Below are positions 1 through 35,501 of a stretch of DNA of 40,661 nucleotides, one piece after another. Position 1 is the first letter of the stretch, and each line of letters begins with the position of its first letter. Location: assembly GCA_020851435.1 (NCBI GenBank), contig JADZCS010000282.1:1-40661 (forward strand). Direction: 5' to 3'. Position numbers and translations under genes: made by a program. Origin of the DNA: Gammaproteobacteria bacterium (GTDB taxonomy: Bacteria > Pseudomonadota > Gammaproteobacteria > Steroidobacterales > Steroidobacteraceae). Under the pieces are notes generated by a model that saw nothing but the letters and a program-made list of their open reading frames with translations, did no database searches and had not been told where the DNA came from.

Positions 1-1074
1 CCCCGCGTCGCTCGAGCTCGGCGAGCCTGCGATCGAACTCGTCGCGCGCGGCCACGGCGGCGCCGGCTTCACGTTCATCCTGGGCCGCCTGCTCGCGGCG
101 TGCCGCCAGTTGTTCGGTCGCGCGCTTTGCGGCCGATGCGGCGAGGCTGGCGTCGGGGGCCCGCTCGCCTGCCGATAGCCACGTGAACAACGCTGCCGCT
201 GCAACCGCAACGGCCGCGACCCCGGCAGCCGCCTTCCAGTGACGCCAGGGGCCGGCTGCGTCCGTGCGCATGGTGGCGGTCGCGGCGCTGGCCGGCGCCG
301 CGGGCTCGTCCGGCGGTTCCTGAGCGGCGGCGGCGAGCAGGGCTGCGACTTCGTCCATCGACGCCGGGCGTTCCGCCGCCGACTTCGCGAGCAGCCGCAG
401 CGCGAGGCGCCGCAGGCCTTCCGGCGTCGGTTGCCGCGGCACGAGCTGCGGAGGCGGCTCGTACAGCACCTTGTCGCGCGTGATCGCGGGATAGAAGGGC
501 GGGCTGGCCGCAAGCAGTTCGTAGAGCATGGCCCCGAGCGCGTACAGGTCGTCCGCTGGCGCCGCAGGCTCGCCGCGCAGGCGTTGCGGTCCCTGGTTGT
601 AGGGCGAGCCACCGCTGGGGGGCAGTTCGCCGATGCGCGTGGCGCGGCCGAAGTCCGCGAGTCGCGGGTTGCCCGCGGCGTCGATCAGCACGTTGCCGCA
701 CTTGAGGTCGCCGTGGGTGGTGCCCAGCGCATGCAGTTGCGCCAGCTGTGCGGCCACGCCCTGCAGCGCGGGCAGGAACGAGCGGTACGAGCGGCCGCGG
801 AACTGACCCAGGTCGCCGCCGGCGACGTATTCGAGCGCGCAGAACCTCCGGCCGCCTTCCTCGTGGAGGCCGTAGACCTCGACCGCCCCGGCCGGCGCCA
901 GGCGCATGCGTTCGAATTCGGCGGTCGCTTCCTCGTCGGGCAGGAACTTGAGTGCGACGCGGCGTGCCGCTTCGCGATCCTCGGCGAGCCAGACTTCGCC
1001 CTGGCCGCCTTCGCCGAGGCGGCGCAGCAGGACGAAGCGCGAGCCGAGCTCGAGCCCGGCCGTAAGCGGCTTCA
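1..1074 (-). CDS. Membrane-anchored Ser/Thr protein kinase, partial (C-terminus beyond the left edge)
   Basis: Translating the minus strand from the ATG at 1074 gives a Hanks-type kinase. It has a glycine loop (GEGGQGEV, residues 21-28), VALK with the ATP-binding Lys43, a catalytic loop HGDLKCGN (121-128) and DFG (141-143). A single hydrophobic segment near residues 281-299 follows, and then an Ala/Glu/Arg-rich probable coiled coil that is still open at base 1. The kinase domain should be cytoplasmic and the C-terminal part periplasmic. The catalytic loop reads HGD rather than HRD, so it is a non-RD-type kinase. The stretch between Lys43 and the hinge is short. The start lies 8 nt after the stop of the upstream lipoprotein gene and lacks a clear Shine-Dalgarno, which suggests translation coupled to that gene. 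The substrate is unknown. The family assignment is secure; the envelope role is inferred from the neighbours. Confidence 0.93.
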
Positions 1075-1082
1075 TGAAACGT

Positions 1083-2342
1083 TCAACCGCCGCCTGGCGG
1101 CGCCGGCGCGGGTGGCGACGGCGCGGGGTTGGCGCTGACGCCGCCGGTTTCCTCCGCGTAGAGCTCGGCCAGCAGCTTGCGCCATTCCGCGTACTGCGCC
1201 TCGGCGGTGCCGGTCAGCTTCAGCGTGCGGCCTTCCACCTCGACGTTGAGCGGCGCGGCTTCGTTCTCGAAGGAACTCGAGATTTCCTTGAGCGCGCTGG
1301 TGTGGATCTTGGCTTCCTCGCCCTTCTGCATGCCGCTCATGATCGCCATCGTGCCGCCGGTGATCGCCGCATAGCGCCCGACGTCGGTGGCTCGCGCGCA
1401 GGCGTCGCTGCTGCAGTTGGTGTCGACGAGGATGCCGGCCAGGATGGCTGCGACGCCGAGCCCGATGCGCGCATTCCGCTGGGCCTTGAGCTTTTCCTCG
1501 GCGACGATCTCGTCGTAGGAATAGCGGCGCCAGTTGAGGTAGGGCTCCTGGGCGCGCTCGCTGAACGCGGCATAACTCTCGTTGACGGTGTCGATGACGC
1601 CGGCGTCGCGCTCGCGGATGCGCTCGATGCGCTCCACCACCACGTCGCCCTCGGCCGGCAGGCGGGCGACCTTCCAGCGTCCGCTCTTCTTGTCGTGCTG
1701 CAGGTAACCGGCGAGCGCCTGCGGCGCGAAGTCCTGCGCGAAACGCAGCTCGGCGACGCGGCGGATCTCGCGCAGTTCGTCTGCGCTCAGGCGCTGGCGC
1801 GCGGCGAGCATGTCGTTGGCAATCGTCGCGTAGACGTTCTGGAAGGGGTCGCGCGCGCGGCCCGCGCCGTCCTTGTAGGCCCGCGTGTCCGCCGGGCCTT
1901 CGTAGCGCTTGCGGATCCAGCTGCGACCGGTCGCATCGACTACCTCGATGTCGAGCTTCAGCACCGAGCCCGTGGACTCGACGATGCGCCCCGACACCAT
2001 CACGTCCATGACCTCGACGGTGGGCGGGATCACGCGCACCGCGCCCCACTGCCCGGCGCCCGCGAGCGTGCTGCCCACCTGGCCGGGCAGGTAACGGGCC
2101 TCGGCCTTGCGGATCTCGGGATAGATGCGGTCCTTCTCGCCGAGCTCGGGGTTGTCCTCGATTTCCTTCGACACGCCCGGGTCGAACAGGCGCACGCCGA
2201 CGTCGAGCAGCTGGTCTTCCGGCACCTCGGTGGTTGCCTGGACGGCCTGCAGCTGAGGCAGCGGCCTCGTTTCCTTCACGACGCAGCCCGCGAGGGCCGC
2301 GATCGCGACGAATGCCGTGAATGCGCGCAATGCCTGCATCAT
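1083..2342 (-). CDS. Conserved hypothetical lipoprotein, 419 aa
   Basis: The N-terminus is a lipoprotein signal peptide ending in the lipobox LAGC with lipidation Cys20, so the mature protein should be an envelope lipoprotein. I do not recognise a named family. The middle (about 60-200) looks like a mixed alpha/beta globular domain. A pair of small-residue-rich hydrophobic stretches around residues 300-350, with a Cys-containing loop (NCSSDAC) between them, could insert into or lie on a membrane. The C-terminus is Pro/Ala rich. It sits 4 nt downstream of the poly-Ser lipoprotein gene and 8 nt upstream of the Ser/Thr kinase gene, so the three are almost certainly co-transcribed. The start is the first of two adjacent ATGs (2342 and 2339); either gives the same signal peptide. 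The function is unknown. Sensing or scaffolding linked to the kinase is inference only. Confidence 0.88.
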   Translation of the reverse strand: MMQALRAFTAFVAIAALAGCVVKETRPLPQLQAVQATTEVPEDQLLDVGVRLFDPGVSKEIEDNPELGEKDRIYPEIRKAEARYLPGQVGSTLAGAGQWGAVRVIPPTVEVMDVMVSGRIVESTGSVLKLDIEVVDATGRSWIRKRYEGPADTRAYKDGAGRARDPFQNVYATIANDMLAARQRLSADELREIRRVAELRFAQDFAPQALAGYLQHDKKSGRWKVARLPAEGDVVVERIERIRERDAGVIDTVNESYAAFSERAQEPYLNWRRYSYDEIVAEEKLKAQRNARIGLGVAAILAGILVDTNCSSDACARATDVGRYAAITGGTMAIMSGMQKGEEAKIHTSALKEISSSFENEAAPLNVEVEGRTLKLTGTAEAQYAEWRKLLAELYAEETGGVSANPAPSPPAPAPPGGG

Positions 2343-2346
2343 GGGT

Positions 2347-3537
2347 TCACTGGCCCTTCTTGTACTTGCGGTATTCCTCCCAGAGCCGCGCGCGCAGCTC
2401 CGGGTCGGTTTCCTTCATCGCCGCCTCGCGCAGCTGGCGAGCCACGATGTCGTCGTCGCTGCCGTCGGGAATGTCGGCCGGCGCGTCTTTCGGGCCGGAG
2501 CCCTTCGTGCCGCCGCCGGCGCCACCGCCGCCACCCTCGGTGCCGTTGCCGGTGGAGCTGTCCCCACCGCCCTCGCGATCCGATTCCATGCTGCCGCTGC
2601 GGTCGCCACCGGCCTTTCCGGTGCCACTGCCCTGGCCGGAGGCGCCGCCAGCGCCATCCTTGCCGCCGGTCGATCCCGCGGAGTCGCCGGACTCACCGTT
2701 GCCGCCCGTGGCCGCGCCTTCTTCGGCGGCACGCGCGCGCGCGATCTCGGCCTGGGCATCCCGCACCGCGGCATCGAAAGTGCCGAAGGTTTCGTCGAGC
2801 CTGCGGTCGATCGCCGCGCGGCGGCCCTCGCCGGTGCTGCCGCCCGCACTTCCACTACCGCTACCACTGGTGGTTCCACTGGCGCCGCCGGCAGTGCCTG
2901 CAGTCGTACCGCCGCCCGTGCCGCCGGCAGTGCCTGCCGAGGACGGCAGGTTCGCGCCCTGGCCGCCGGATGTTGCCGTCTCGGTGCCGCCGGCAGAGCC
3001 GCTGCTCGTCGTAGACGCGCCCTGGCCAGACTGGCCCGCCTTGGCGGTGCCCGGGGTCCCGGCGGCGCCGGACGTGCCAGTGCTGCCAGGGGTGCCCGAG
3101 GCGCCGGAGGTACCAGCGGAACCCGAGGCGCCAGCCGAGCCCGCGCTACCGGCGCTGCCAGTGCTTCCAGTGCTACCAGCGCTGCCGGTACCGCCGGTGC
3201 TTCCAGTACTACCAGTGCTGCCACTGCTCCCGCTACTGCCCTCGCTGCCCGGCTGCGGCAGCGCCGCCGACCCGCCGCCCTGGCCCTGCGTGGGGAAGGT
3301 CTGCTGGGAACCGCCTGACGAGGAAGACGACGATGAACTGGACGACGATGAACTGGAGGAGGACGAGCTGGAAGAGGATGAACTGGATGAGGTCGAGCCG
3401 CTGGACGATGACGGCATTCCGCCCGAGGGCATCGAGGTGCTGCTGCTCTGCGACGATTGCTGATCGGGCAGGCAGCCGGCCACGAGGCTCGCAGCGAGCG
3501 CCCATCCGGCAACATCCCAACGGCGGTTGCAGATCAC
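2347..3537 (-). CDS. Low-complexity lipoprotein with a 25-Ser tract and collagen-like G-X-Y repeats
   Basis: I place the start at the GTG at 3537 because GGGGGA lies 6 nt upstream and the product then begins with a signal peptide ending in LVAGC (lipidation Cys22). An open frame extends further upstream but lacks a signal sequence. The mature protein (396 aa precursor) has a Ser/Gln/Pro linker and a run of 25 serines (residues 50-74). Next come 23 uninterrupted Gly-X-Y triplets rich in Ser/Thr/Ala (97-165), more Gly/Ser/Thr spacer, a charged helix (about 240-280), a Gly-rich linker and a charged C-terminal helix ending KYKKGQ. This looks like an extended envelope stalk or spacer, not an enzyme. 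A Pro- and Asp/Glu-rich plus-strand frame overlaps it but has no start signals. The gene lies between two lipoprotein genes in the kinase operon. Its function is unknown. Confidence 0.86.
   Translation of the reverse strand: MICNRRWDVAGWALAASLVAGCLPDQQSSQSSSTSMPSGGMPSSSSGSTSSSSSSSSSSSSSSSSSSSSSSSSSGGSQQTFPTQGQGGGSAALPQPGSEGSSGSSGSTGSTGSTGGTGSAGSTGSTGSAGSAGSAGASGSAGTSGASGTPGSTGTSGAAGTPGTAKAGQSGQGASTTSSGSAGGTETATSGGQGANLPSSAGTAGGTGGGTTAGTAGGASGTTSGSGSGSAGGSTGEGRRAAIDRRLDETFGTFDAAVRDAQAEIARARAAEEGAATGGNGESGDSAGSTGGKDGAGGASGQGSGTGKAGGDRSGSMESDREGGGDSSTGNGTEGGGGGAGGGTKGSGPKDAPADIPDGSDDDIVARQLREAAMKETDPELRARLWEEYRKYKKGQ
3043..3249 (-). repeat. Collagen-like triplet repeat, 23 G-X-Y units
   Basis: Read on the minus strand within the lipoprotein gene, these 69 codons encode 23 consecutive Gly-X-Y triplets, mostly GST, GSA, GTS and GAS with two GTP. 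Bacterial collagen-like proteins form triple helices with such sequences, but proline is scarce here, so trimer stability is uncertain. Synonymous codons are mixed, so the DNA repeat is imperfect. Confidence 0.8.
3316..3390 (-). repeat. Poly-serine tract (25 codons) built on a 15-bp tandem repeat
   Basis: On the minus strand this stretch is 25 successive Ser codons using all six serine codons. On the plus strand it contains four 15-bp units at 3326-3340, 3341-3355, 3356-3370 and 3371-3385. The first two are identical (GACGACGATGAACTG); the other two carry only synonymous changes. This shows expansion by a five-codon unit followed by drift that kept serine. Confidence 0.88.
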
Positions 3538-3622
3538 GTTAGTCCCCCGACAACGGCATCGAAGCCTTCTGGATTGGAACATGCCTGCGGGGCAAGGTTC
3601 CAATGCATCGAACGGGCGGCCC

Positions 3623-4294
3623 TCAGGGGCTGGCCGCCGCGGCCGCCGAGTCGCCGCCGCGCAGGAACGCGGTGAGCTGCTCGGCGAGACGGTCGCAGGC
3701 GGTAGCCTGCACGCGCGCAATGAACGGCAGCGGCACGATCACGCCGACGAGCGCCGAGGTGCCGGTGACGTTGGTGGTGACCTCGCCGGTGGACTTGCCG
3801 GTCTGCAGGTCCCAGACCGCCGCCTCGTAAGCCGACTCCTTTTCCCACCAGCCAAAACCGAGGCAGCCGCCGCCGCCGGGGCCGATGGCGCAGGAGAAGC
3901 TGCCGCCGCTGTCGGTCTTGCGCGTGACGCCGTCCACCCACACGACGTAGCGCACACCCGTGCCGGCGATGCGTTGCGCGACCGACGGCCGCGCCAGCAG
4001 GCGCGCGATGCCCTCGGGGCGCTGTGGCGCGATCGCGGGCTCGAACCACGGGAACAGCTGGTCGACGAACGCGTCGTTCGCCTGGACCTTGATGCCCTCG
4101 CCGCTGAGCCTGCCGCCCACGCAGTCCATGAACGAATCCTCGGCGCTGCCGCCGTCGACCTTGGGCTTGGCGAGGATGACCACGCCCTCGCCGGAGGCGA
4201 TGTGGGTCGGCGCCATGCGGTTCTCGTCGAGCTTGGCGGTCATGCAGCCCGTCAGCAGGGTGGTGACAGCCACGACCGAAAGCGTGCGTTTCAT
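3623..4294 (-). CDS. Lipoprotein, 223 aa, with a Cys/Gly-rich domain shared with the protein at 34263-35501
   Basis: The protein begins with a short signal peptide and the lipobox LLTGC (Cys17). The remaining ~205 residues form one domain with landmarks D-x3-C-V (an early Cys), LFPWF, a central beta segment, a Cys-x5-GGGGCLG loop followed by W-x-E-x-[ED]-S, and near the end PLPFIA then a Cys. The same landmarks in the same order occur in the C-terminal half of the lipoprotein encoded at 34263-35501, so the two are paralogous over this domain. Conserved cysteines fit a periplasmic, disulphide-containing domain. No named family is recognised. It is the first gene of the minus-strand kinase operon, 85 nt upstream of the poly-Ser lipoprotein gene. 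The start at 4294 has no Shine-Dalgarno, but a TATACT box lies 7 nt upstream, so the mRNA may be leaderless. Confidence 0.88.
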   Translation of the reverse strand: MKRTLSVVAVTTLLTGCMTAKLDENRMAPTHIASGEGVVILAKPKVDGGSAEDSFMDCVGGRLSGEGIKVQANDAFVDQLFPWFEPAIAPQRPEGIARLLARPSVAQRIAGTGVRYVVWVDGVTRKTDSGGSFSCAIGPGGGGCLGFGWWEKESAYEAAVWDLQTGKSTGEVTTNVTGTSALVGVIVPLPFIARVQATACDRLAEQLTAFLRGGDSAAAAASP

Positions 4295-12923: not shown

Positions 12924-14420
12924 ATGCTGATGCCCCGCTTTCCGACGCGAGTTCCCCAGCTTCACACGATGATCCGCTGCGGCGATCGCCACGTGCACGC
13001 GCGCATCGCCGGCAGCGGGCCGGCGCTCGTCGCCCTGCACGAGTCGCCACGGTCCTCGCTCTCGCTGCTGCCGCTGATGGACGCACTGGCCGACGACTTC
13101 ACCGTGATCGCGCTGGACACGCCGGGCTACGGCTACTCGGATCCCCTGCCGTCCGCACGTCCCGAGATGCCGGAGTTCGTCGAGGCACTGGGCCAGGTGC
13201 TGGATGTGCTGGGCCTCGAGCGACCGGCGATCTACGGGACCCACACCGGTGCCGCGATCGCTGCCGCGTTTGCACTCGCGCGCCCGCAGCGCGTCTCGGC
13301 GCTGGTGCTCGACGGCTTTGCCGCCTTCGACGCGGAAGAGCAGGTGGACTTCGCCGATCGCTACCTCGCGCCCTTCGAGGCCGAGTGGGATGGTTCCCAC
13401 CTTGCGCGACTGTGGTCGCGGTGCCGCGACCTGTTCATGTGGTTTCCCTATCACCACCGCGACGCGGCCCACCGGCTGCAGACCGAGCTGCCGTCGGTCG
13501 AGGCGGTCTACGCGACAGTCCGCGGCTTCCTGCAGGCAGGCAGCGCTTACTGGAAGGGATACCGCTGCGCGGGCGCCCTCGATGCGCCAGCCGCGGCGCG
13601 CGCGCTCACGGTGCCGACGCTGGTCACCGCGCGGCCGCACGACCTCATCGCCGCGCACCTCGTGCGCGTCGAGCCGACGGCGAGCGTGGAGGTCAGGGCG
13701 CTTGGGCCCTCACCCGAGGACTGGGCCTCGGCGATCAAGAGCCACCTCGCGCGGCATGGCAGCGGAGAGCGGGCCACGATGCCGCCGGGTGTCCGACCGA
13801 GATTCGTGGCCCACGGCGATGGCGCGCTGCACCTGCGCTGGATCGAGGGCGACGAGCGCATCGCCGTCGTGCTGCCTGACCTGCCGACGGCGGCGCGCGA
13901 TGTGGAGGTGCCGGAGGCACTTCGCGATGGACGCACGCTGCTGATCATCGACGCGCCGGGCTGCGGCATGTCCGATCCGCTGGCCGGGCCGGCGACGTCG
14001 ATCGGCGATTGGCTCGCGCCCATCAGCGCCGCCTTGACACATTGCGGCATCGATGCGTACGACGTCATCGGCCTCGGACGCGGCGCACTGCTGGCGAAGG
14101 CACTTGAGCAGCACGACCAGCGCGTGACGGGCATGACAGTGATCGACGCGCCGGCGTGGTTCGCTGATCCCGGTGCGACGCCTGTCGAGCCGCTACTGCT
14201 CAAGCCCTGGCCTGATCCGGATGGCGGTTCGCTGCTGTCCACCTGGTACCGCCTGCGCGATCTCGCATTCTACGAAAGCGTTACCAACGGGGTTCCGCGC
14301 GACCGCAGGCCGCAGGCCCGCGAGGACATCCCCGCGCTGCGGGCTGCGCACGCCGGACTATGGATGGGGCCCGAGTCAGCCGACCTCGTCGCCGCGCTGC
14401 AGGCCTGGCAGCGGCGCTGA
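12924..14420 (+). CDS. Tandem alpha/beta-hydrolase-fold protein lacking recognisable nucleophiles
   Basis: The 498-aa product contains two alpha/beta-hydrolase-like halves. Half 1 (about 15-275) has the oxyanion-loop region ALHESPRS, the [10 protein letters not shown] segment typical of the family, and an elbow reading GTHTGA where G-x-S-x-G is expected. Half 2 (about 285-498) repeats the pattern with [14 protein letters not shown] and an elbow reading GLGRGA. Neither half shows a Ser, Cys or Asp at the nucleophile position, and I see no clear catalytic His near the end of half 1. It may be a binding protein, a pseudo-hydrolase or an enzyme with unusual chemistry. No Shine-Dalgarno is evident; ATGs at 12924, 12930 and 12969 are all possible. 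Its 3' end overlaps the convergent glucan synthase gene by 45 bp. Confidence 0.8.
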
Positions 14421-17400
14421 CGCGGACTGGCGGATGTCTACGCTCACGGCATGCTCGCGATGGTCGTCGACCAGCGGAATGCAGCCGTCAGCCTGCTCGA
14501 TGCCGTCGAGCGTAACCATGCGCCCCGGCGAAGAGCCGACACCGTGGCCCTGGGTCACGACGATCCGGTACTGGGTCTCGCCGAAGCGGTAGCTGAGCGT
14601 GCAGGTGGTCCAGTCCGGCGGCAGGCAGGGCGCGACCTGCAGCACCGCGCCGCGGCGCGTCAGGCCCAGCAGCGACTCGATGACCAGCCGGTAGAACCAG
14701 CCGGCGGATCCGGTGTACCAGGTCCAGCCGCCACGACCCGTGTGCGGCGCGATCGCGTAGACGTCCGCGGCCACGACATAGGGCTCGACCTTGTAGGTCG
14801 CGACCGCGTCGGCGGAATTCCCGTGGTGCACCGGATTGACCAATGACAGCAGCTCCCAGGCCCGTTGCCGGTCATCCAGCGCGGCGAAGGCCATGGCGGC
14901 CCAGATCGCCGCATGCGTGTACTGGCCGCCGTTTTCCCGGACGCCCGGGACGTAGCCCTTGATGTAGCCGGGATCCATCGCCGCGTGGTCGAACGGTGGG
15001 TCGAGCAGTTGCACCAGTCCACGATCGCGACGCACCAGGCGCTGGTCGAGGGCGTCCATCGCGGTCCGCGTCCTGTCGGTCGCACCCGCTCCGGACAGCA
15101 CTGACCAGCTCTGGGCTATGGAATCGATCGAGCATTCGAGGTTCACCGACGATCCCAGCGGCGTGCCGTCGTCGAAGTAGGCGCGGCGGTACCAGGAACC
15201 GTCCCAGCCATGCCGCTCGAGGCTGGCCTGCAGCTGCGCGGCTGTCGTCGTGCAGCGCGCGGCAAACACTTCGTCCAGCCGAAGTCGCGCGACGGCCGCG
15301 AAGTCGATGAGTACCCGGTACAGGAAGAAGCCCAGCCAGACGCTCTCGCCCCTGCCGTGGATGCCGACGAGGTTCATGCCGTCGTTCCAGTCGCCCGAGC
15401 CCATCAGCGGCAGGCCGTGCTCCCCGAAGCACAGCCCGTGCTCGATCGCGCGCGCGCAGTGCTCGTAGAGGCTGGCGACCACGGTGGTGCGCCTCGGAAG
15501 GTCGAAGTACGACTCCTCGCTGGCGCCGAGCGCGCGCGCCTCGAGGAAGTGCAGGCTCTCGTCGAGCACGCCGGCATCGCCGGTGACCTCCACGTAGCGG
15601 CACACCGCAGCCGGCAACCAGAGATAGTCGTCGGAGCAGCGCGTGCGCACGCCGCGTCCTGCCGGCGGATGCCACCAGTGCTGCACGTCGCCTTCCGGGA
15701 ACTGGCGCTCGGCGCAGCGCAGCAGGTGTTCGCGCACGAGCCGCGGCTCGGCGTGCACGAGCGCCATCACGTCCTGCAGCTGGTCGCGGAATCCGAAGGC
15801 GCCGCCCGACTGCTGGAAGCCGCTGCGCGCCCACAGGCGGCAGGCCAGCGTCTGGTAGACCAGCCAGCCGTTGGCCAGCACGTCGAGCGACGGATCGGGG
15901 GTCGTGACCTGGATGGCGCCGAGCGTGTGCTTCCAGTATTTCCGGACCGCCGCCAGCGCGGCCCGCGCCGAGCCGGGCGTGCGCAGGCGGCGCGCCAGTT
16001 CATTGGCCTTGTCGGGGTCGCGCCCGACGCCGAGCCGGAAGATGATCTCGCGCTCCTCGCCGTCGGCAAGCTCGAACGGCACCTGGATCGCGCCACAGGG
16101 GTCCAGGGCTGCGCCGAGCCGGCCGGACAGTCGCGCCCGGGACATCGCATCGGGGTTGGCAAGCGTGCCATTGCGCCCGAGGAACTCGTTGCGGTCGCCG
16201 GTGACGCTGCGGCTGCGGTCATCGACATCGAAGAACGCGGTGCGTCCGGAGAACTCGGTGTTGTAGTCGTTGCGGGCGAACAGCGCGCCGCTGCTCGAGT
16301 CCATCTCGGTGACCACGTGCATGGCGGCCTTGGGGCGAAGGTCGCCGAGGACCCACTCGACATACCCGGTGGCGGACAGGCGCCGCGTCCGCCCGGAGCC
16401 ATTGCGCAGCTTGAGCACCGAGAACTTGACGCTGTCCTCGAGGTCGACGTAGACCCAGAGCTCCGAGCGGATGCCGCCCGTGGTGTGTTCGAACACGCTG
16501 TAGCCGAATCCGTGGCGCGTCACGTAGGGCATGGCGCCGCGACTCGGCAGCGGCGTAGGCGACCAGTAATGGCCGCTTTCCTCGTCGCGAAGGTAGAACG
16601 CCTCGCCGCTGCCCGTGCCGACCGCATCGTCGCGCCACGGAGTCAGGCGGAATTCGTGGGCGTTTTCAGTCCACGTGTAGCAGGGCCCGCTCTCGGACAC
16701 CACGGTTCCGAAGTCCGGGTTGGCCAGGACGTTGACCCACGGCACCGGAGTCAGGCGGTCTTTCGTTGTGGTGATGACGTACTCGCTGCCGTCCGCGCTG
16801 AAACCGCCGAGATCGTTGCCGAGCACCAGGCCCTGCCGCGGCCCATCGGCCGCGGCGGCGGGTTCGCCGCGGTGGGTCCGGCTGGGCACCAGCTTGGGTA
16901 CGCGATTGGCGGGTAGGTTCCTGAGCCCGATCTGCTCGAGCAGCGACCCGCGGTCGTCGGAGATCACTGCGCGGGCGACGGCTTGCAGCAGCAGGCGATC
17001 CTCGGCGGAGATCTGCTCCCCGCGTCGGACGAATATCCCGCCGGGCCGGTCGATCACGTACGCCTCGCTGCCCGTCGCGATCAGCCCCACGATCTGGTCC
17101 TGCAGGTGCTGGCGGTAACCGGCGTGGTCCTCGTTCCAGATCACGAGGTCGACGACCAGGCCCTTGAGCCGCCAGTAGGCGTGGCAGCGGATCAGTTGTC
17201 GTGCCAGGTCGATGTGCGCCGAATCCGAGATCTTCAGCAGCACGATCGGCAGGTCGCCTGAAATGGCGTATCCCCACAGTCCCGACTGGCCGCGGCGGTT
17301 CCGCCGCAGCACGGCCGGGTCGGCGCGCAGCGCGGCGTTCGCGTAGATGACCGAGCCGGCGAGCCGCCGGTACAGCTGCGCGTCGTGCTCGCTGGCATTG

Positions 17401-20400
17401 ATCTGCCGCAGCGTCACGCCGCTGTGCGTGCAGGCGACATCGAACACGCGGTTCGCGAAGTTGCGGTCGTGATACTTCTTGACCAGCGCGATGGCCGCGG
17501 CCCTCTCCTCCGTCGCGCCGGAAACGAAGTCGACCGTGACCGACTGCTCGGCCTCGAGCGTGACCTGGCAACGGATGGCGACGATCGGGTCGAGCACCGA
17601 TCCGGCCGTGCCGGACAATGCGCCACGGGTGTCGAGCGCGGCGGGCGCGGCGGGCGTCCCGCCGCGACCGATGAAGCGCATGCGGTCGGTCTCGAAGGAC
17701 ACGCTGTCGATGACGGTACCGTTGGTGGCCAGCATGTGGAACATCCACGGCGTCGGTTCGCCGCGGGAGCGCGGCCTGCGCGAGCAGAGGATGGCGCGCG
17801 AGTCGTCGAGTATCTCGGTCTGCACGAACAGGTTGCCGAAGGAAGGCTGCATCGCGTCGGCCGCGGGCACCGCCAGCACGACTTCCGCGTAGCTCGTGAT
17901 CTCCATCGTGCGACGCCGGTACGAGTGGTTGGTGATCCGGATGCGGCGCAGCTCAATGTCGTCTTCGGGCGATACCACGAGCTCGGTGTAGGTCTCCACG
18001 TCCTGGTCGCGCCGACGGAATTCGGCGCGCCCCTCGGAGAAAACCGCTTCGTAGCTGTCGGCCGCCCTGAGTGTCGGCTGGTGGCCCGCCGACCAGAATT
18101 CACCGCTGACGGCGTCGCGCAGGTAGATGAAGGTGCCCCAGTTGTCGCGCGTTGCATCCTCGCGCCAGCGCGTGACGGCGAGGTCCTTCCAGCGGCTGTA
18201 GCCGCCACCCGCATTGGTGACCATGACCTTGTAGCGGCCGTTCGACAGCAGGTTTACCTCCGGTGCCGGCGTGTTGGCGCGGATCGGCGGCTGCATTGCC
18301 GAACCGGCAAGGTCGACCGGAGTGCTGGCCTCGGCCTGCTCGGATACGCGACTGCGCGGCGCGACAGTCCTGGGGACCCTTTCCTGCAGCAGCAGCAGCG
18401 TCGACTGGAGCAGCGGGTCCGCTGCGAATCGTTGCTGCATCGGCCAGTCCAGCAGCAGGTTGCCGATCGACAGCAGCACCATGCCCTGGTGATGCGCCAT
18501 GAATGAGCGAACGATCTCGGCGGACTGTCCCCTCGCCAGGCGCGACGACGTGTAGTCGATCGCCTCGTACAGTCCGTAGCGGCCTTCGAGTCCGTCGGCC
18601 GCGAGCAGCTGCAGGTTCGCGCAGGCCGCCTCGGGATCCACCATCAGGGCGAGCGCCGAGGCATAGGGCGCGACAACCGAATCGTCCGCCAGCCCGCGCT
18701 TGAGCCCGAGCCCGGGCACGCCGAAGGCGTGGTACTGGTAGTTCAGGCCGGCATCGATGGAGTTGTAGCCCGATTCGGACACGCCCCACGGCAGGCCGCG
18801 CTGTCGACCGTAGGCGATCTGCCGTGCCACGGCGGCACGGCAGGCCTGGTCGAGCAGCGTGCCGGCGTAGCTCGGCATCACCAGCAAGGGCATCAGGTAC
18901 TCGAACATCGACCCGCTCCACGACATCAGCACGGGCTTGCCGCCGGCGGTGGTCAGGCGCCTGCCCAGCGCGAACCAGCTTTCCTGGGGCAACTTGCCCT
19001 GGGCGACGACCACGAAGCTGCACAGGCGGGCCTCCGAGGCGAGCAGGTCGTAGAGGCTGGTGTCGCGGCGGAATTCATCGACGTTGTAGCCGATGGCCAG
19101 CAGGTGCTGGGCACGGTCGTACAGGAACTCGTATTCCATCGCCGCAAACCCAGCGGCCTGCGTGGCAAGCGCCTCGGCCGTGGAGATCATTCCCGCCGCG
19201 CAGGCGTGGCCCGCGGCCAACTGCTCATCGAGCATCGACAGCCACTCCCGCTCCGCGGATGTGGCCGCCGCTGGCATGCGGGCCGCAATCGCTTCGCGAA
19301 GCGCCGCTGCGGCGTCGAGCAGTTCGCGCAGCGTTGGAATGCGGTCAGCTTCGTTCGCGCCCGCGACGCCCAGCACGGTGCACGGGATATCCGGCAGGCC
19401 GCCCAGCCCCGCCGGCCCTGGGGCAGCCTCGAGCCATGGCGCCAGTCGAAGCAGTTCATCGAGGTCAGCGCCGCACTGTCTCAGCACGGCCTGGCGTGGA
19501 TCGGCCGCGTCGGTATCGACGGGCGCACCCCCCGTTCCAGGCGCGGCCTGTGCCGCTGCCGCCAGGGAACGCAGTGCCTGCCAGGCTTCGCGCAGCGACG
19601 ATGGCTGACGAAGTCCGGCGTCATGGATCATCGGCCGCAGTGCGTCCACCGACGCCGTGCTGGCGGCCCGCGCGGAAGACAGCGGCAGTTCGAGCGCGTC
19701 GAGCAGGCCGTCGAACAGCCGCGGGCTGACGGCCGCCTGTCCGGGGAGCGCCAGCAGCGCCGCGCGCAGCGTCAGCAGGTGACCGGCGAGGTTGCCGCTG
19801 TCCACCGACGAGATGTATCGCGGTGCCAGCGGCTGCAGCGTCCGCGTGTCATACCAGTTGAAGAAGTGGCCGTGGTGCCGCTGGAGCCTCGCTAGTGTTC
19901 CGAAGGTATCCCGCGTGCGATCGAGCAGCTGCCCCCTGGTGATGTACGCGAAGTCGCAGGCCGACAGGTTGGCCAGCAGGGCCAGGCCGATGTTGGTCGG
20001 CGAGGTACGGTGCGCGATGACCGGCCCCGGGTCTTCCTGGAAGTTGTCGGGTGGAAGCCAGTTTTCCTCGGCCGTGACGAAGCGGTCGAAGAAGGCCCAG
20101 GTCCTGATGGCCGTGCGTCGCAGGAAGCGGATCTGGTCGGCAGTGAGCCTGGGCTCGGGCCTTGCCAGCGGCCGGCTCAGCAGCCACGCCAGCGCCGGCG
20201 CGGCCAGCCACAGCGCCAGCACGGGTGCGGCGACCGGCAGTGCATCGGGGCGAAGCAGGGTAAGGGCCGTTGCCGTGGCAGCGACCGTGAACGGCGCGAC
20301 CCACATCCATCGGTACGATGCCGACAGCGCGGCTCCGCCGCCGCGCTCGCGCGCGTTGCCACTGGAGGCCTGCCACTCCAGCAATCGACGATGCGAGAAC

Positions 20401-23186
20401 AGCATGCGCCAGCAGGCGCGCAGGATCGCGTTCAGGCTGGTCGCAGCCTCGTGCGGGAGACACGCTATCCGGAATCCGGACAGCGCAAGGCCTTGTCCGG
20501 CCGAATTCGCCGTAGCCGACAGGTGCTGGCCCAGCAGCGCTTCGCGGGACCTGTCCATCAACTCCACGATCAAGGCCAGGACCGGCGGGAGCAGCACGAA
20601 TCCGAGCAGCATCAGCGTCCAGGCAGCTGCCCTCGGCACCAACAGCCAGCCGAACAGCCACAGCGTGACCAGCGCGGCGGGGACGAGGCTGCGGCGCAGG
20701 TTGTCGAATATCTTCCAGCGGGAAAGCGCCGACAGCGGATTGGGCAGCGACTGGCCGCCAGGCCCCGGGACCCGCGGCAACAGCCAGCGCGCGATCTGCC
20801 AGTCGCCGCGAATCCAGCGCTCCTGGCGGCTGACATCCGCGCTGTAACGCGCCGGGCACTCCTCATAGAGCGGCACGTCGCTGAGCAGGCCGGAGCGGGC
20901 GTAACAACCTTCCAGGAGGTCGTGGCTCAGGATGCGGTTGTCGGGGAAGCGCGATCCCAGCGCGCGCTCGAAAGCGGCTACGTCATAGATGCCCTTGCCG
21001 ATGAACGAACCCTCGCCGAAGACGTCCTGGTAGACGTCGGAGACCGAGCGCGTATAGGGGTCGATCCCGGGATCCTGCCCGCACAGCTGCGCGTACCACG
21101 AGCGATCGGCGCCAGACAGCGTCGCGGCCATCCGCGGCTGCAGGATTCCGTAGCCCGCCGTGACCCGCCCGCGGACCTCGTCATGCTGCGCGTGGTTCAG
21201 CGGATGGGCCATCACGCCGACGAACTGGCGGGCGGCGTCGCGCGGCAACAGCGTGTCGGTATCGAGCGTGATCACGTACCTGACATCGGCGAAGAATTCG
21301 ACGTCACCGGCGACCGACGAAAACGCGCTCCAGTCCCCGCTCAGCAGCGCGGCGTTCAGGTCGGCGAGCTTGCCGCGCTTGCGCTCATGGCCAATCCAGC
21401 TTCGATCCGCTGCATTCCAGCGCCGGGGCCGGTGCAGCAGGAAGAACGGACCGTTACCGGCGTCGGCGTACTTCTGGTTCAAGGCCTCGATTCCGTCGCG
21501 CGCCCTGTAAAGCAGCGGCCCGTCGCCAGCGAGTACTTCGGTCGGCGCGTCACAGAAGTCCGTGAGCAGGCAGAAGCCGAGTTGCCTGTCGCGGTTGCCA
21601 AGGAACCGGACTTCCAGGGCCTCGACGAGTTCGTCGATACTGTCGGGGCTCGTCAGCAGCGTCGGGACCACCACCAGGGTGCGCATGTCGGCAGGCAGCC
21701 CCGACGCAAAGTCCATGCGCGGCAGGGCCTTCGGCGTGACCAGCAGCGTGGTGAGCCAGTTCGTCAGCGCCGACGCGAACTGGCTGGCCGCGAGTGCCGC
21801 CAGCGCGCCGAGCGGCAGCAGCAGCCAGCCGCGGATGCCGCCCTCGGTCGCGATCTGCAGCAGCCCGGTCGCGGCCAGCGCGGTGATCACCGCGATCGTG
21901 CCGACCAGAAGGGTCAGCGGGAAGCGCGTAGCCAGGCGGACGACCCGCTGGGCGACGGACACGCGTGCGAGGACGGCGTGCTCGAGCTCGAGGCGGCCGC
22001 GGTCCACCAGGTAGTAGCCGACGTGCGCCGCGCGTTCGTCGCCATCGCTGATATGTCGCCGCGACAGCGCGATCGCCGCAAGGGCGACCTCGGTTTCCGA
22101 GAGTCCACACCGTCGCGCAAACCGCGCGACCGCATGCCGGTACTGGTCGCGCGTGGCGAAGTCCATGCCGTGGTAGACGTCGACTGGATCAGTGCGCAGC
22201 ACCTGCTCGACCGAGCTCATGCGTTCGACGAACACGCGCCAGTCGAGCGCGCCCAGCGAGCGCAGTCCGCCGATGCTGTTGCTGATCGACACCTGGTCGG
22301 CCGCCTGCTGCGTGTTCTCCGACAGGACCATCTGCTCGATGGTCTGGTTCGACTCGGCGAGGCGCTGCTCGATCCAGGTCAGCGGCAGCGCGAGGGCCGG
22401 CCCGCGTCCCTGCAGGTTGCGCGTCAGCTCCGCGACGAACGGCCCCGCCATCGGCGGCCCGGAGCGCGCCATGTCGGCGATCACCAGGATCAGGCTCTTC
22501 GGGTCGGACTCCGCGGTCTCGTGCATCTCCCTGGCCCAGAGCTGTGCCTCGTCGGCGTGGGCACGCGCCGCGGCGATCCGCAGCCCCACCTGGGCGAGGT
22601 TCTCGATGAGCGCCAGGCGCAGCATGATCGGGATGGCCCAGAGCTCGCCGAGGTTCAGCGGCGTGACTGTCTGGTAGGCGCCGACGAACCGGCCGAGTGT
22701 TTCCGCATCCACGCGGCCGTCGCTGTGCGAGATCGACTCGATCGCGAGGTCGTATACGCGTGGCATGCCGCGCGAGGGACCCTGCGCCAGGCGCGGCAGC
22801 TCGCGGCTGTAGCCACGCGGCAGGTGCTGCCTGGCCGTGCGGATCTGGTCCTCGATGAGGTGCCAGTTGTCGACCAGCCATTCGGCGGCCGGGACCATGC
22901 GCAGTTGCGCCTTGGCCGCTGCCGTCAGCATGCTGCAGGTGTCGGTGAGTATCCTTTCGTTTGCGCCCAGGCGAGTGAGCAGCCGATCGGGTGAGCCGGC
23001 GCCGTCGAGGACGTGCCTCGCAGCCAGCCCCTTGCCGTGCTGCTCCATCTGGTCGGAGTTGAAAAGCTCCGCGCGCAGTGGCGCCTGGTATTCGGCTGCA
23101 TCAGGGACGACGTGGCCGCTGCGCAGGACTGGCAGGCGCGCTGCTGCCGCCTGCAGCCGCGTCCAGAGTTCCGTCCCGCTGATCAT
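14376..23186 (-). CDS. ndvB: Cyclic beta-1,2-glucan synthase (NdvB/ChvB/Cgs type), about 2936 aa
   Basis: This giant inner-membrane enzyme makes cyclic beta-1,2-glucan from UDP-glucose. In order (numbering for a frame starting at 23219) it has an N-terminal soluble region; hydrophobic segments around 430-490; a GT84 glycosyltransferase domain (about 510-830) with DTDT at 653-656 and [10 protein letters not shown] near 800; more membrane segments (845-890 and 970-1025); a glycoamylase-like domain (about 1050-1560); and a GH94 phosphorylase region to the end with [10 protein letters not shown] near 2600 carrying the catalytic Asp. This matches the full length and order of known NdvB proteins, so all parts appear intact. 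I prefer the ATG at 23186, preceded by GGCGGA; ATG 23207 and TTG 23219 are alternatives. Periplasmic glucans act in osmotic adaptation and host interaction. A sensor kinase gene lies directly upstream. Confidence 0.94.
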
Positions 23187-23305
23187 GGTGTCCGCCCGTG
23201 CAAGCATCAGGCGAATCAACCCGCAGCGGATGTGGGCCTTCGATCGCCGCTCAGCAACTCTCTTGTAGGCTTCGGCGCGGCCAGGGTCTGTGCGTCAGCG
23301 TACGG

Positions 23306-32579: not shown

Positions 32580-34274
32580 CTACGCGCTGCTCTGACCACC
32601 CAGTGACGGCAGGTCCAGGCCCTCGGCGCGCGCGCAGTCGATCGCCCGCCCGTAGCCCGCATCGGCGTGGCGCATGACGCCGGTTGCCGGGTCGTTGCGC
32701 AGCACGCGCGCGATGCGCCTTGCCGCCGCCTCGGTGCCGTCGCACACGATCACGACGCCCGCGTGCTGGGAGAAGCCCATGCCGACGCCGCCGCCGTGGT
32801 GGATCGACACCCAGGTCGCGCCGCCGGCGGTGTTGAGCAGCGCGTTGAGCAGCGGCCAGTCGGACACGGCGTCCGAGCCGTCCAGCATGGCCTCGGTCTC
32901 GCGGTTCGGGCTCGCGACCGAGCCCGAGTCGAGGTGGTCGCGGCCGATGACGACCGGCGCCTCGAGTTCGCCGCGCGCCACCATCTCGTTGAAGGCGAGT
33001 CCCAGCCGCGCGCGATCGCGCAGGCCTACCCAGCAGATGCGGGCCGGCAGTCCCTGGAAGCGGATGCGCTCGCGCGCCATGTCCAGCCAGCGGTGCAGGT
33101 GCGGGTCGTCGGGGATGAGTTCCTTGACCTTCGCGTCCGTGCGGTAGATGTCCTCGGGATTGCCGGACAGCGCGACCCAGCGGAACGGCCCGATACCCTC
33201 GCAGAACAGCGGCCGGATGTAGGCCGGCACGAAGCCCGGGAAATCGAAGGCCTTGGCGAGGCCCTGCTCGAGCGCGACCTGGCGGATGTTGTTGCCGTAG
33301 TCGAAGGTCACTGCGCCGCGCGACTGCAGGTCGAGCATCGCCTGCACGTGCACCTTCATCGAGGCACGCGCCGCCTGCTCGACGCTCGCCGGATCGGCGA
33401 TGCGCCCCGCGGCGGCCTGCGCCAGCGACCATCCGCGCGGCAGGTAGCCGTTGCGCGGATCGTGGGCCGAGGTCTGGTCGGTGACGACGTCCGGCACGAC
33501 GCCCCGCTCGACCAGCGCGGGGTAGACGTCGGCGGCGTTGCCGAGCAGGCCCACGGACAGCGGCGTGCGCGCACGCGTGGCGGCTTCGATCATCGCGAGC
33601 GCCTCGTCCAGCGTGTGCGCCTTGCGGTCCAGGTAGCCGGTGCGCAGGCGGAAGTCGATGCGCGACTCGTCGCACTCCACCGCCAGCATCGAGAAGCCGG
33701 CCAGTGTCGCGGCCAGCGGCTGCGCGCCGCCCATGCCGCCCAGTCCGGCGGTCAGGATCCAGCGGCCGCGCGCGTCGCCGCCGAAGTGCTGCCGGGCGCA
33801 GGCGCCGAAGGTCTCGTAGGTGCCCTGCACGATGCCCTGCGACCCGATGTAGATCCAGGAGCCGGCCGTCATCTGGCCGAACATCATGAGGCCCTTGCGA
33901 TCGAGCTCGTGGAAGTGTTCCCAGGTCGCCCAGTGCGGCACGAGGTTGGAATTGGCGATCAGCACGCGCGGCGCGTCGGTGTGAGTCCTGAACACGCCCA
34001 CCGGCTTCCCCGACTGCACCAGCAGGGTCTCGTCCTCGCCCAGCCGGCGCAGGGTCGCGAGGATCGCGTCGAACGCGGCCCAGTCGCGCGCGGCCTTGCC
34101 GATGCCGCCGTACACGACTAGCTTGTCGGGATGCTCGGCGACCTCCGGGTCGAGGTTGTTCTGGAGCATGCGGAACGCCGCTTCCGTGAGCCAGTTGCGG
34201 CAATGCAGTGTGCTGCCGCGCGGGGCGCGGACGGGACGCGGGCCGGCAGCGGGAGGCATGGCATGGGTCGTCAT
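32580..34274 (-). CDS. hutU: Urocanate hydratase
   Basis: It converts urocanate to 4-imidazolone-5-propanoate using tightly bound NAD+ as electrophile. The 564-aa product matches the usual length of about 560. Landmarks are [25 protein letters not shown] at the N-terminus (quoted in parts: [16 protein letters not shown]), [33 protein letters not shown] (the substrate/NAD region, partly G-S-W-I-Y-I-G), the Rossmann loop [12 protein letters not shown], the Cys-containing [18 protein letters not shown] near residue 410, and [15 protein letters not shown] near the end. I use the ATG at 34274; an ATG at 34259 is also possible. No Shine-Dalgarno is seen; a TATCCT box 8 nt upstream of 34274 would give a near-leaderless mRNA. 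The start region overlaps the divergent lipoprotein gene. Confidence 0.97.
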
Positions 34275-35501
34275 GGGGCCAGAGGATACCCCGGCCTGAT
34301 CCTGATGGCGCTGCTCGCCGGTTGCGCGGGACCGCTGGTGCGCGTCGACGCGCCAGCCTGGCAGCCGCCGCTGGTCGAGTCCCTGCCGCTGCGCGTAGGC
34401 GTCTACGTCTCGCCCGCGCAGCGCGGTTACATGTTCGTCGACAGCAGCATGAGCGGCGCCAGGCTGGATCTCGGTGAAGCCGGCGCGGCCACGCTGCTGG
34501 CCGCCGCCCGCGGCGGATTTGCCGGGGCAGTTGAACTCGACGATCCTGCGGCAGCCGCCGGCGCAGGCGTCGATGCGGTGCTCAGCGTCGCCGCCATGGA
34601 GTGGCGCAGCACGCTCACCCGCGAAGCCACGACGACGTCGGCGCACTACACGCTGCGACTCGCGGAACCCTCGGGTGCGCTGGTGGGCGAGTGGACGCGT
34701 GAATTCTCCACCAGCCTCGAGGAAATCGTGCCGGATCCCGGCCAGCCAGGACTCTGGAGCCTCAACAGCGTGTACGAGGCGCCGGCGACGGTGCTGCTGG
34801 AGAGGCTAGGGTCCGCATTCCTGCGCGAGTTTCGCGACGAGCCCGCCATCCGCGCCTGGCTCGAGGCGCGCGCCGCCTACCGGCCCGCGCTGCCTGCGCC
34901 GGCCGCGGGCGCGGCGCTGGCCCCGTGGGCACGTCCCTCGGGTGTGCAGGTCGCCAGCGACGCAGGCAGCGACGTGGTGCGGCGTTGCGTGATCAAGGGC
35001 CTGCGCCGTGAACTGCCCGAGCGCCCCGTGGTGGCCGGCCCGGCGCTGCGCCAGGCCTTGTTTCCCTGGTTCAGCGACCAGCCCGCGGCGGCTGCCGGCG
35101 CCGAACGGCTGCGGGCGCTGCTCGCGCTACCCGAAGCGCGTTCGCGGCTGGAAGCCATCGGCGTCGGAACGGTTGTCCTCGTGAGCGGCGGCACGCGCCA
35201 GGACTGGCATGGCGCGGGCTTCTGCGGCGCGGGCTACGGCGGCGGGGGCTGCCTGGGCCTGACCTGGGGCGAGCGCGACTCGCTGATCGTCGCGCGCATC
35301 GTCGACCTCGCGTCTCCTGCCGCGCTGAGCGAGAGCAGTGCGCACAGGTCAGGAACGACCGTGATTCCCATGCTGGGAATTCCGCTGCCGTTCATTCCCG
35401 CCACCCAGTCGGCCGCTTGTCACGAGATGGCGCATGCGCTGGCCCGCGAACTGCGCGCGCAGCGGCCGCCGTTTGCTTCGCCCGATCGTACTGGGCCATG
35501 A
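34263..35501 (+). CDS. Two-domain lipoprotein, 412 aa, sharing its C-terminal domain with the lipoprotein at 3623-4294
   Basis: I choose the ATG at 34263 because GGGAGG lies 6 nt upstream and the product then starts with a signal peptide ending in LLAGC (Cys21). A longer frame from 34131 has no signal sequence. The N-terminal domain (about 25-215) starts [16 protein letters not shown] and resembles uncharacterised proteobacterial lipoprotein domains of that pattern. The C-terminal domain (about 235-405) repeats the landmarks of the small lipoprotein at 3623-4294: an early Cys, LFPWF, Cys-x3-GGGGCLG, then G-E-R-D-S, IPLPFIP and a late Cys. It should be a periplasmic-facing lipoprotein. Its stop overlaps the OPT transporter start as ATGA, and the OPT gene overlaps hutI, so the three are translationally coupled. 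The function is unknown. Confidence 0.87.
34283..34288 (-). promoter_or_regulatory. Candidate -10 box (TATCCT) for hutU inside the divergent lipoprotein gene
   Basis: TATCCT on the minus strand is followed by 8 nt and the hutU ATG at 34274. The spacing suits a leaderless or near-leaderless transcript. It lies within the first codons of the plus-strand lipoprotein gene. The -35 is not convincing. Confidence 0.3.

Follow-up and report, generated by a model that had tools for sequence, protein, structure and literature searches.

To our knowledge, ion-driven envelope motors come in only a few kinds, each of them driving a major process: swimming, nutrient uptake, division, gliding or secretion, and defence. 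The 5:2 ion-driven motors include MotAB, ExbBD, TolQR, GldLM and AglRQS, of which the last is a precedent for one A subunit with two different B proteins (PMC9389320). In type IX secretion, an inactive FGE fold that has been put to a new use, PorK/GldK, makes up an outer-membrane-associated ring, which PorLM energises (PMC12421860). The type VI secretion system (T6SS) is under the control of PpkA, PppA and Fha, a pathway of threonine phosphorylation (PMC3953482). Here we report an operon whose single parts can be assigned to known families or resemble them, and whose whole assembly matches no named system tested. The genes very likely form one system, and on balance we read the operon as encoding an ion-driven machine that spans the envelope and is switched by a kinase-FHA pair. 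On the whole it looks like another ion-driven envelope motor, still nameless, whose conservation extends over many environmental Gammaproteobacteria, one further proteobacterial family and Acidobacteriota. The system may be a 5:2-type motor, and possibly a categorically new machine. The original prediction knew of no described envelope system with this composition, and indeed none was found in open-access papers and family libraries, although an account of the gene combination elsewhere is possible.

The window, i.e. the whole stretch of 40,661 nucleotides that was analysed, is identical with the whole contig C282 of a Steroidobacteraceae genome. Its minus strand carries three lipoproteins and a transmembrane Ser/Thr kinase, as originally described, with three lipoboxes and a Pkinase match of 1.3e-21 beside one TM helix (residues 282-300). 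The idea of an operon also stands, while its size does not, since the four genes are the 5' third of about 11. The features are as follows.

3623-4294, minus strand: LP1 lipoprotein, 223 aa, lipobox LLTGC
2347-3537, minus strand: pS lipoprotein tether, 396 aa, GTG start, lipobox LVAGC
1083-2342, minus strand: LP3 lipoprotein, 419 aa, lipobox ALAGC
2-1075, minus strand: KIN Ser/Thr kinase, N-terminal 358 aa, cut by the window edge
1-127: exact 127-bp overlap with contig C149, where the operon continues
34263-35501, plus strand: 412-aa lipoprotein outside the operon, an LPX-like half fused with an LP1-like half
3679-4002 of locus L009 (contig C149): SM, small exported protein, 104 aa

Between LP1, pS, LP3 and KIN, in this order, the intergenic gaps measure 85, 4 and 7 nt. 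The reconstruction past the window relies on two 127-bp overlaps: contig C149 (L009) shares 127 bp exactly with the left end of C282, and contig C17 (L032), from the same genome, shares 127 bp with C149. Uninterrupted versions of the joined gene series are present in relatives. The full operon then reads LP1 - pS - LP3 - KIN - FGE - SM - MOT - ASK - VWA1 - VWA2 - LPX, with the end of KIN, FGE, SM, MOT and the start of ASK on L009, and the end of ASK, VWA1, VWA2 and LPX on L032. Thus the kinase C-terminus and further members, which had been expected to the left of the window, are located on C149 and C17. In the joined frames the proteins have lengths of 741 (KIN), 795 (FGE), 104 (SM), 265 (MOT), 444 (ASK), 365 (VWA1), 341 (VWA2) and at least 178 aa (LPX, cut by the contig end). 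The remainder of KIN (L009:1-1278) carries TPR and a PEGA-like end, the latter assigned by eye.

The homologues of these genes come mostly from MAGs. Searching with LP3 gives a homologue in 39 of 59 relatives. Dozens of loci, drawn from two phyla and many families, are long enough to judge the core order, and they keep pS-LP3-KIN-FGE-MOT-ASK-VWA1-VWA2 almost without change, the exceptions being a missing cluster MOT in L033 and L039 and a missing ASK in some divergent loci. The core is flanked by LP1 and LPX in one of three arrangements: LP1 may precede it with LPX following, both may lie upstream and point the other way, or both may follow at the end. Some clusters lack them. Because order and content are kept in dozens of genomes, several orders and two phyla, the gene grouping is not a chance one; the conservation of gene order that the original prediction asked for is extreme, with homologues linked rather than scattered. 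Furthermore, LP3 and a strong MOT match are both present in 39 of the 59 relatives and both missing in 19, and MOT alone is found only in one genome (G025, 87% complete and 6% contaminated). In three genomes (G004, G010 and G030) the MOT gene is located elsewhere, so that the association of LP3 with MOT is independent of adjacency. A MOT-less variant of the operon was considered and rejected, as those genomes carry MOT at another place.

With MOT as query, at least 588 stretches were confirmed among GTDB species genomes, and the best 80 of these include Steroidobacteraceae, Woeseiaceae, Pseudomonadales, Nevskiaceae and Lysobacterales, as well as Thermoanaerobaculia and Candidatus Sulfomarinibacter. 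The linkage of MOT in these 80 exists by construction, since they were picked by MOT, while the loci found by LP3 are free of this. Another proteobacterial class contributes one family (f200; L149, L150 and L151) with a minimal core that has neither kinase domain, ASK, LP1 nor LPX. In VWA2 of these three loci the Asp is kept, and the helix Cys is replaced by Ser.

MOT matches MotA_ExbB (PF01618) with 3.2e-14 and 53 bits, against a cutoff of 22.9. Two threonines, T189 and T222, are 100% conserved in the 98 rows of the alignment and correspond in position to threonines of TolQ, which we take to be the pore residues T145 and T178. VWA1 and VWA2 each have one N-terminal TM helix with an invariant Asp at the helix start (D16 of VWA1 in 94 rows, D18 of VWA2 in 90 rows, both 100%), and their MIDAS DxSxS residues are 100% conserved. 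In the Pfam scan, VWA1 matches VWA_2 with 3e-6; VWA2 matches no VWA family and has the invariant motif DTSxSM. The locus shares with 5:2 motors a MotA/TolQ/ExbB domain having two pore-type Thr and single-helix partners having the helix Asp, and these residues match the A/B subunit logic of such motors; moreover, one A-type protein stands beside two B-type proteins as in AglRQS. The differences are that the partners here end in VWA domains, which the motor would employ where others employ peptidoglycan-binding or shaft domains, and that the similarity of MOT to TolQ in sequence is weak. TolQ is the nearest solved relative, with a weak resemblance to its structure (E 0.023) and an equivalog score of 29.5 bits against a cutoff of 221, and in the structure comparison no solved motor partner was matched by VWA1 or VWA2. 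VWA is not mentioned in the review of 5:2 motors (PMC9389320) or in a Zorya paper, nor are MotA and TolQ in an account of VWA-rich conflict systems (PMC7159879).

A machine built from these parts is likely ion-driven, judging from its residues. The operon, its kept order, the co-occurrence, the key residues and the covariation of kinase and FHA can be seen in the sequences themselves, and from there we infer ring stoichiometry, ion flow, force transfer and an outer-membrane target as follows. MOT would form an inner-membrane ring of the MotA/TolQ/ExbB type that encloses the single helix of each VWA protein; the invariant Asp of these helices would play the role it has in ExbD, TolR and MotB, and ion flow would turn or shift the VWA1/VWA2 axle. 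Force would pass on through periplasmic coiled coils and the metal-binding VWA domains to a scaffold of TPR/PEGA and PEGA/pseudo-FGE domains, and from this to lipoproteins that most likely sit at the outer membrane: LP3, the pS tether, the PelC/CsgG-like LP1 and LPX. The output would then be force or torque acting on an assembly of outer-membrane lipoproteins, which would serve either to maintain the envelope or to export to the surface. More tentatively, and with somewhat less than even confidence, this may be an unrecognised class of machine, in which a VWA1/VWA2 heterodimer serves as the axle, metal-dependent VWA domains grip periplasmic partners (the C-terminal motif of pS or the FPVDI tail of SM), and kinase-FHA on/off control is an add-on gained or lost several times. 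Of 93 loci, at least 56 have an SM with a C-terminal tail of the FPVDI form, a possible ligand of a VWA or PDZ-like site. The orphan proteins LP1, LP3, pS, LPX and SM also gain a testable context.

As for where the force goes, two further readings have to be weighed. The first, a narrower version of the machine in which the motor powers export or surface assembly through an outer-membrane ring of LP1, like PorLM with PorK, we consider possible but rather unlikely. It draws on the FGE protein, which has an FGE-sulfatase match (6e-46) at its end and four PEGA repeats, and whose nearest NCBIfam model is GldK (1e-29, 104 bits, below the cutoff of 350). The catalytic cysteines are absent from all alignment rows inspected, which led us to reject an active enzyme and agrees with the inactive FGE fold of type IX secretion. 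A 5:2-type motor beside a catalytically dead periplasmic FGE-fold protein is thus what the locus has in common with GldK(PorK)-GldL-GldM-GldN, where PorK, as an inactive FGE-fold ring, is fed by a 5:2 motor. It draws also on LP1, which has no Pfam match and no match to the PelC/CsgG sequence families, and for which a single-chain structure prediction (pLDDT 89) gives a PelC/CsgG-like fold (PelC E 6e-6 with probability 1.00, CsgG 3e-5). LP1 shares the predicted fold and, by its lipobox, the lipid anchor with these outer-membrane lipoproteins, although the identity is 10-15% and the operon context is unrelated; the model also has a long beta-hairpin with two invariant Cys (C135 and C144) at its tip. 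Against the export reading, a large outer-membrane beta-barrel is missing from the cluster, as is any substrate that could be recognised; LP1 and LPX are dispensed with in some clusters; and the FGE protein is anchored in the inner membrane by a TM helix (145-163), whereas PorK is a lipoprotein. The locus differs from the type IX core also in its PEGA repeats, in a cluster with no recognisable GldM, GldN or Sov, and in its hosts, which are Proteobacteria and Acidobacteriota.

The second reading, equally doubtful, is a machine like Tol-Pal that pulls on outer-membrane lipoproteins and thereby holds the envelope together or aids division. Here TolQ as the nearest relative of MOT, the lipoproteins with the pS tether among them, and a weak likeness of LP3 to the TolB N-domain speak in favour. 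LP3, without Pfam match, is predicted (pLDDT 89.5) as an alpha/beta domain with a long helical hairpin; however, its TolB match falls short of significance (E 4.5e-3, low TM-score). TolA, the TolB propeller and Pal are not in the cluster, which has instead a VWA axle and a kinase module. Besides, VWA2 is matched in 26 of 275 genomes of a class-wide sample, mostly by strong matches, and this patchy presence argues against an essential role.

The residues at +2 after the lipobox Cys in the three window lipoproteins are M, L and V, with no Asp, compatible with sorting to the outer membrane. The recurrence of a Cys-rich domain in the window, noticed earlier, is borne out by the 412-aa protein, in which an LP1-like half (E 1e-31) is fused with an LPX-like half (E 2e-15); this fusion supports LPX and LP1 acting as a functional pair. 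The pS protein had been described as a poly-Ser/collagen-like stalk. A long Ser tract followed by about 23 Gly-X-Y triplets can be read off its sequence, in a poly-Ser/Gly-rich linker that varies greatly in length; the linkers of the homologues are unrelated low-complexity sequence. As Gly-X-Y is not kept and the last ~34 residues are (DDDIVARQLREAAxxETDPELREKLWEEYRKYKK), a collagen stalk was rejected.

We then turn to the kinase. KIN has the catalytic K, D, N and DFG and is of the non-RD type (HGDLK). ASK ends in an FHA domain (7e-9 for the L036 homologue tested), and its N-terminal part is ATPase-like, of the Hsp70/actin type, as assigned by eye only. Scoring the kinase catalytic residues and the pThr-binding residues of FHA in 75 loci, we found both intact in 50, both lost in 22, kinase only in two and FHA only in one (Fisher 1e-15, not corrected for phylogeny). 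Both kinase-only loci have ASK cut by a contig end, leaving one real exception; ASK is cut as well in L095 and L107, so the call of FHA loss is unsafe in these two both-lost loci. With these four left out, a tree of MOT+VWA1+VWA2, made by a quick method and having some long branches, gives 8 changes of kinase state and 7 of FHA state. Of 6 independent pairs 5-6 agree, and 6-7 of 7 when ASK-less loci are counted, with none opposed (sign test p 0.016-0.06). In the non-intact loci the kinase domain is degenerate or wholly absent. The loss of FHA is not a general decay of ASK, since R199, D201, P202 and E209 of ASK stay 100% conserved.

Where both domains are kept, as in this genome, kinase-FHA control is likely by this evidence: the kinase would phosphorylate a Thr, and the FHA domain of ASK would bind the pThr, a phospho-switch of assembly or activity. 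No convincing conserved Thr substrate appeared in the cytoplasmic parts of FGE, KIN, MOT and ASK. The set of kinase and FHA, with PP2C in some loci, resembles the control of T6SS by PpkA, PppA and Fha. Both have a membrane kinase, an FHA protein and, in some lineages, PP2C, together with an FGE-like periplasmic domain and a lipoprotein as with TagQRST; PP2C phosphatase genes are present in only 18 loci, including all 15 with an extra kinase upstream. The differences are that FHA is fused here to an ATPase-like domain and that the target would be the MotA/VWA complex, and no family of T6SS structural genes was found among the cluster proteins scanned.

It is improbable that MOT and the VWA proteins are a gated channel or sensor of envelope stress with the kinase as output, even if the periplasmic TPR/PEGA domain of the kinase and the logic of TagR/PpkA (PMC3953482) fit such a sensor. 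In many lineages the kinase domain is gone or degenerate with all envelope parts kept. The kinase domain is dispensable, and in evolution it goes together with the FHA domain of ASK; from the sequences, the kinase looks as if it feeds control into the machine and is not the output. For an envelope structure with a cytoplasmic kinase output, as first proposed, the envelope and the kinase as part of the operon hold good, while stalk and output probably were the wrong emphasis. Nor is the switch universal in the ion-driven machine, since the same core is found in some loci without kinase and without ASK. Since the switch is naturally present in some lineages and absent from others, phospho-control of a 5:2-type motor can be tested.

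An anti-phage system of the Zorya kind is very improbable, and defence found no support. Both are 5:2-type motors having a MotA-like channel and a single-helix partner, and ZorA2 matches MOT weakly (8e-6, 23 bits, a stretch of 94 aa only). However, the partners here are of the VWA type, the cluster has no OmpA-type ZorB, no ZorC and no ZorD, and no Zorya effectors, and no distribution by mobile elements was seen: among 72,556 plasmids none has a homologue of VWA2, and there is usually a single copy per genome in constant order. Finally, that these are neighbour genes without a common function, for which nothing speaks except that no promoter was predicted, is refuted by the near-invariant order across orders and phyla and the co-occurrence without adjacency, and deserves practically no credence.

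Some minor observations are added. Two genomes (G056 and G043) have beside the full copy a second divergent copy without ASK and without kinase domain (L048 and L049). Lone divergent MOT genes away from the cluster are found in L141, L142, L143, L144 and L145, and one genome (G033) has one MOT in the cluster and one lone MOT, which suggests duplication and replacement. In the window itself, a very long ORF of 2943 aa is called at 14376-23207 on the minus strand.
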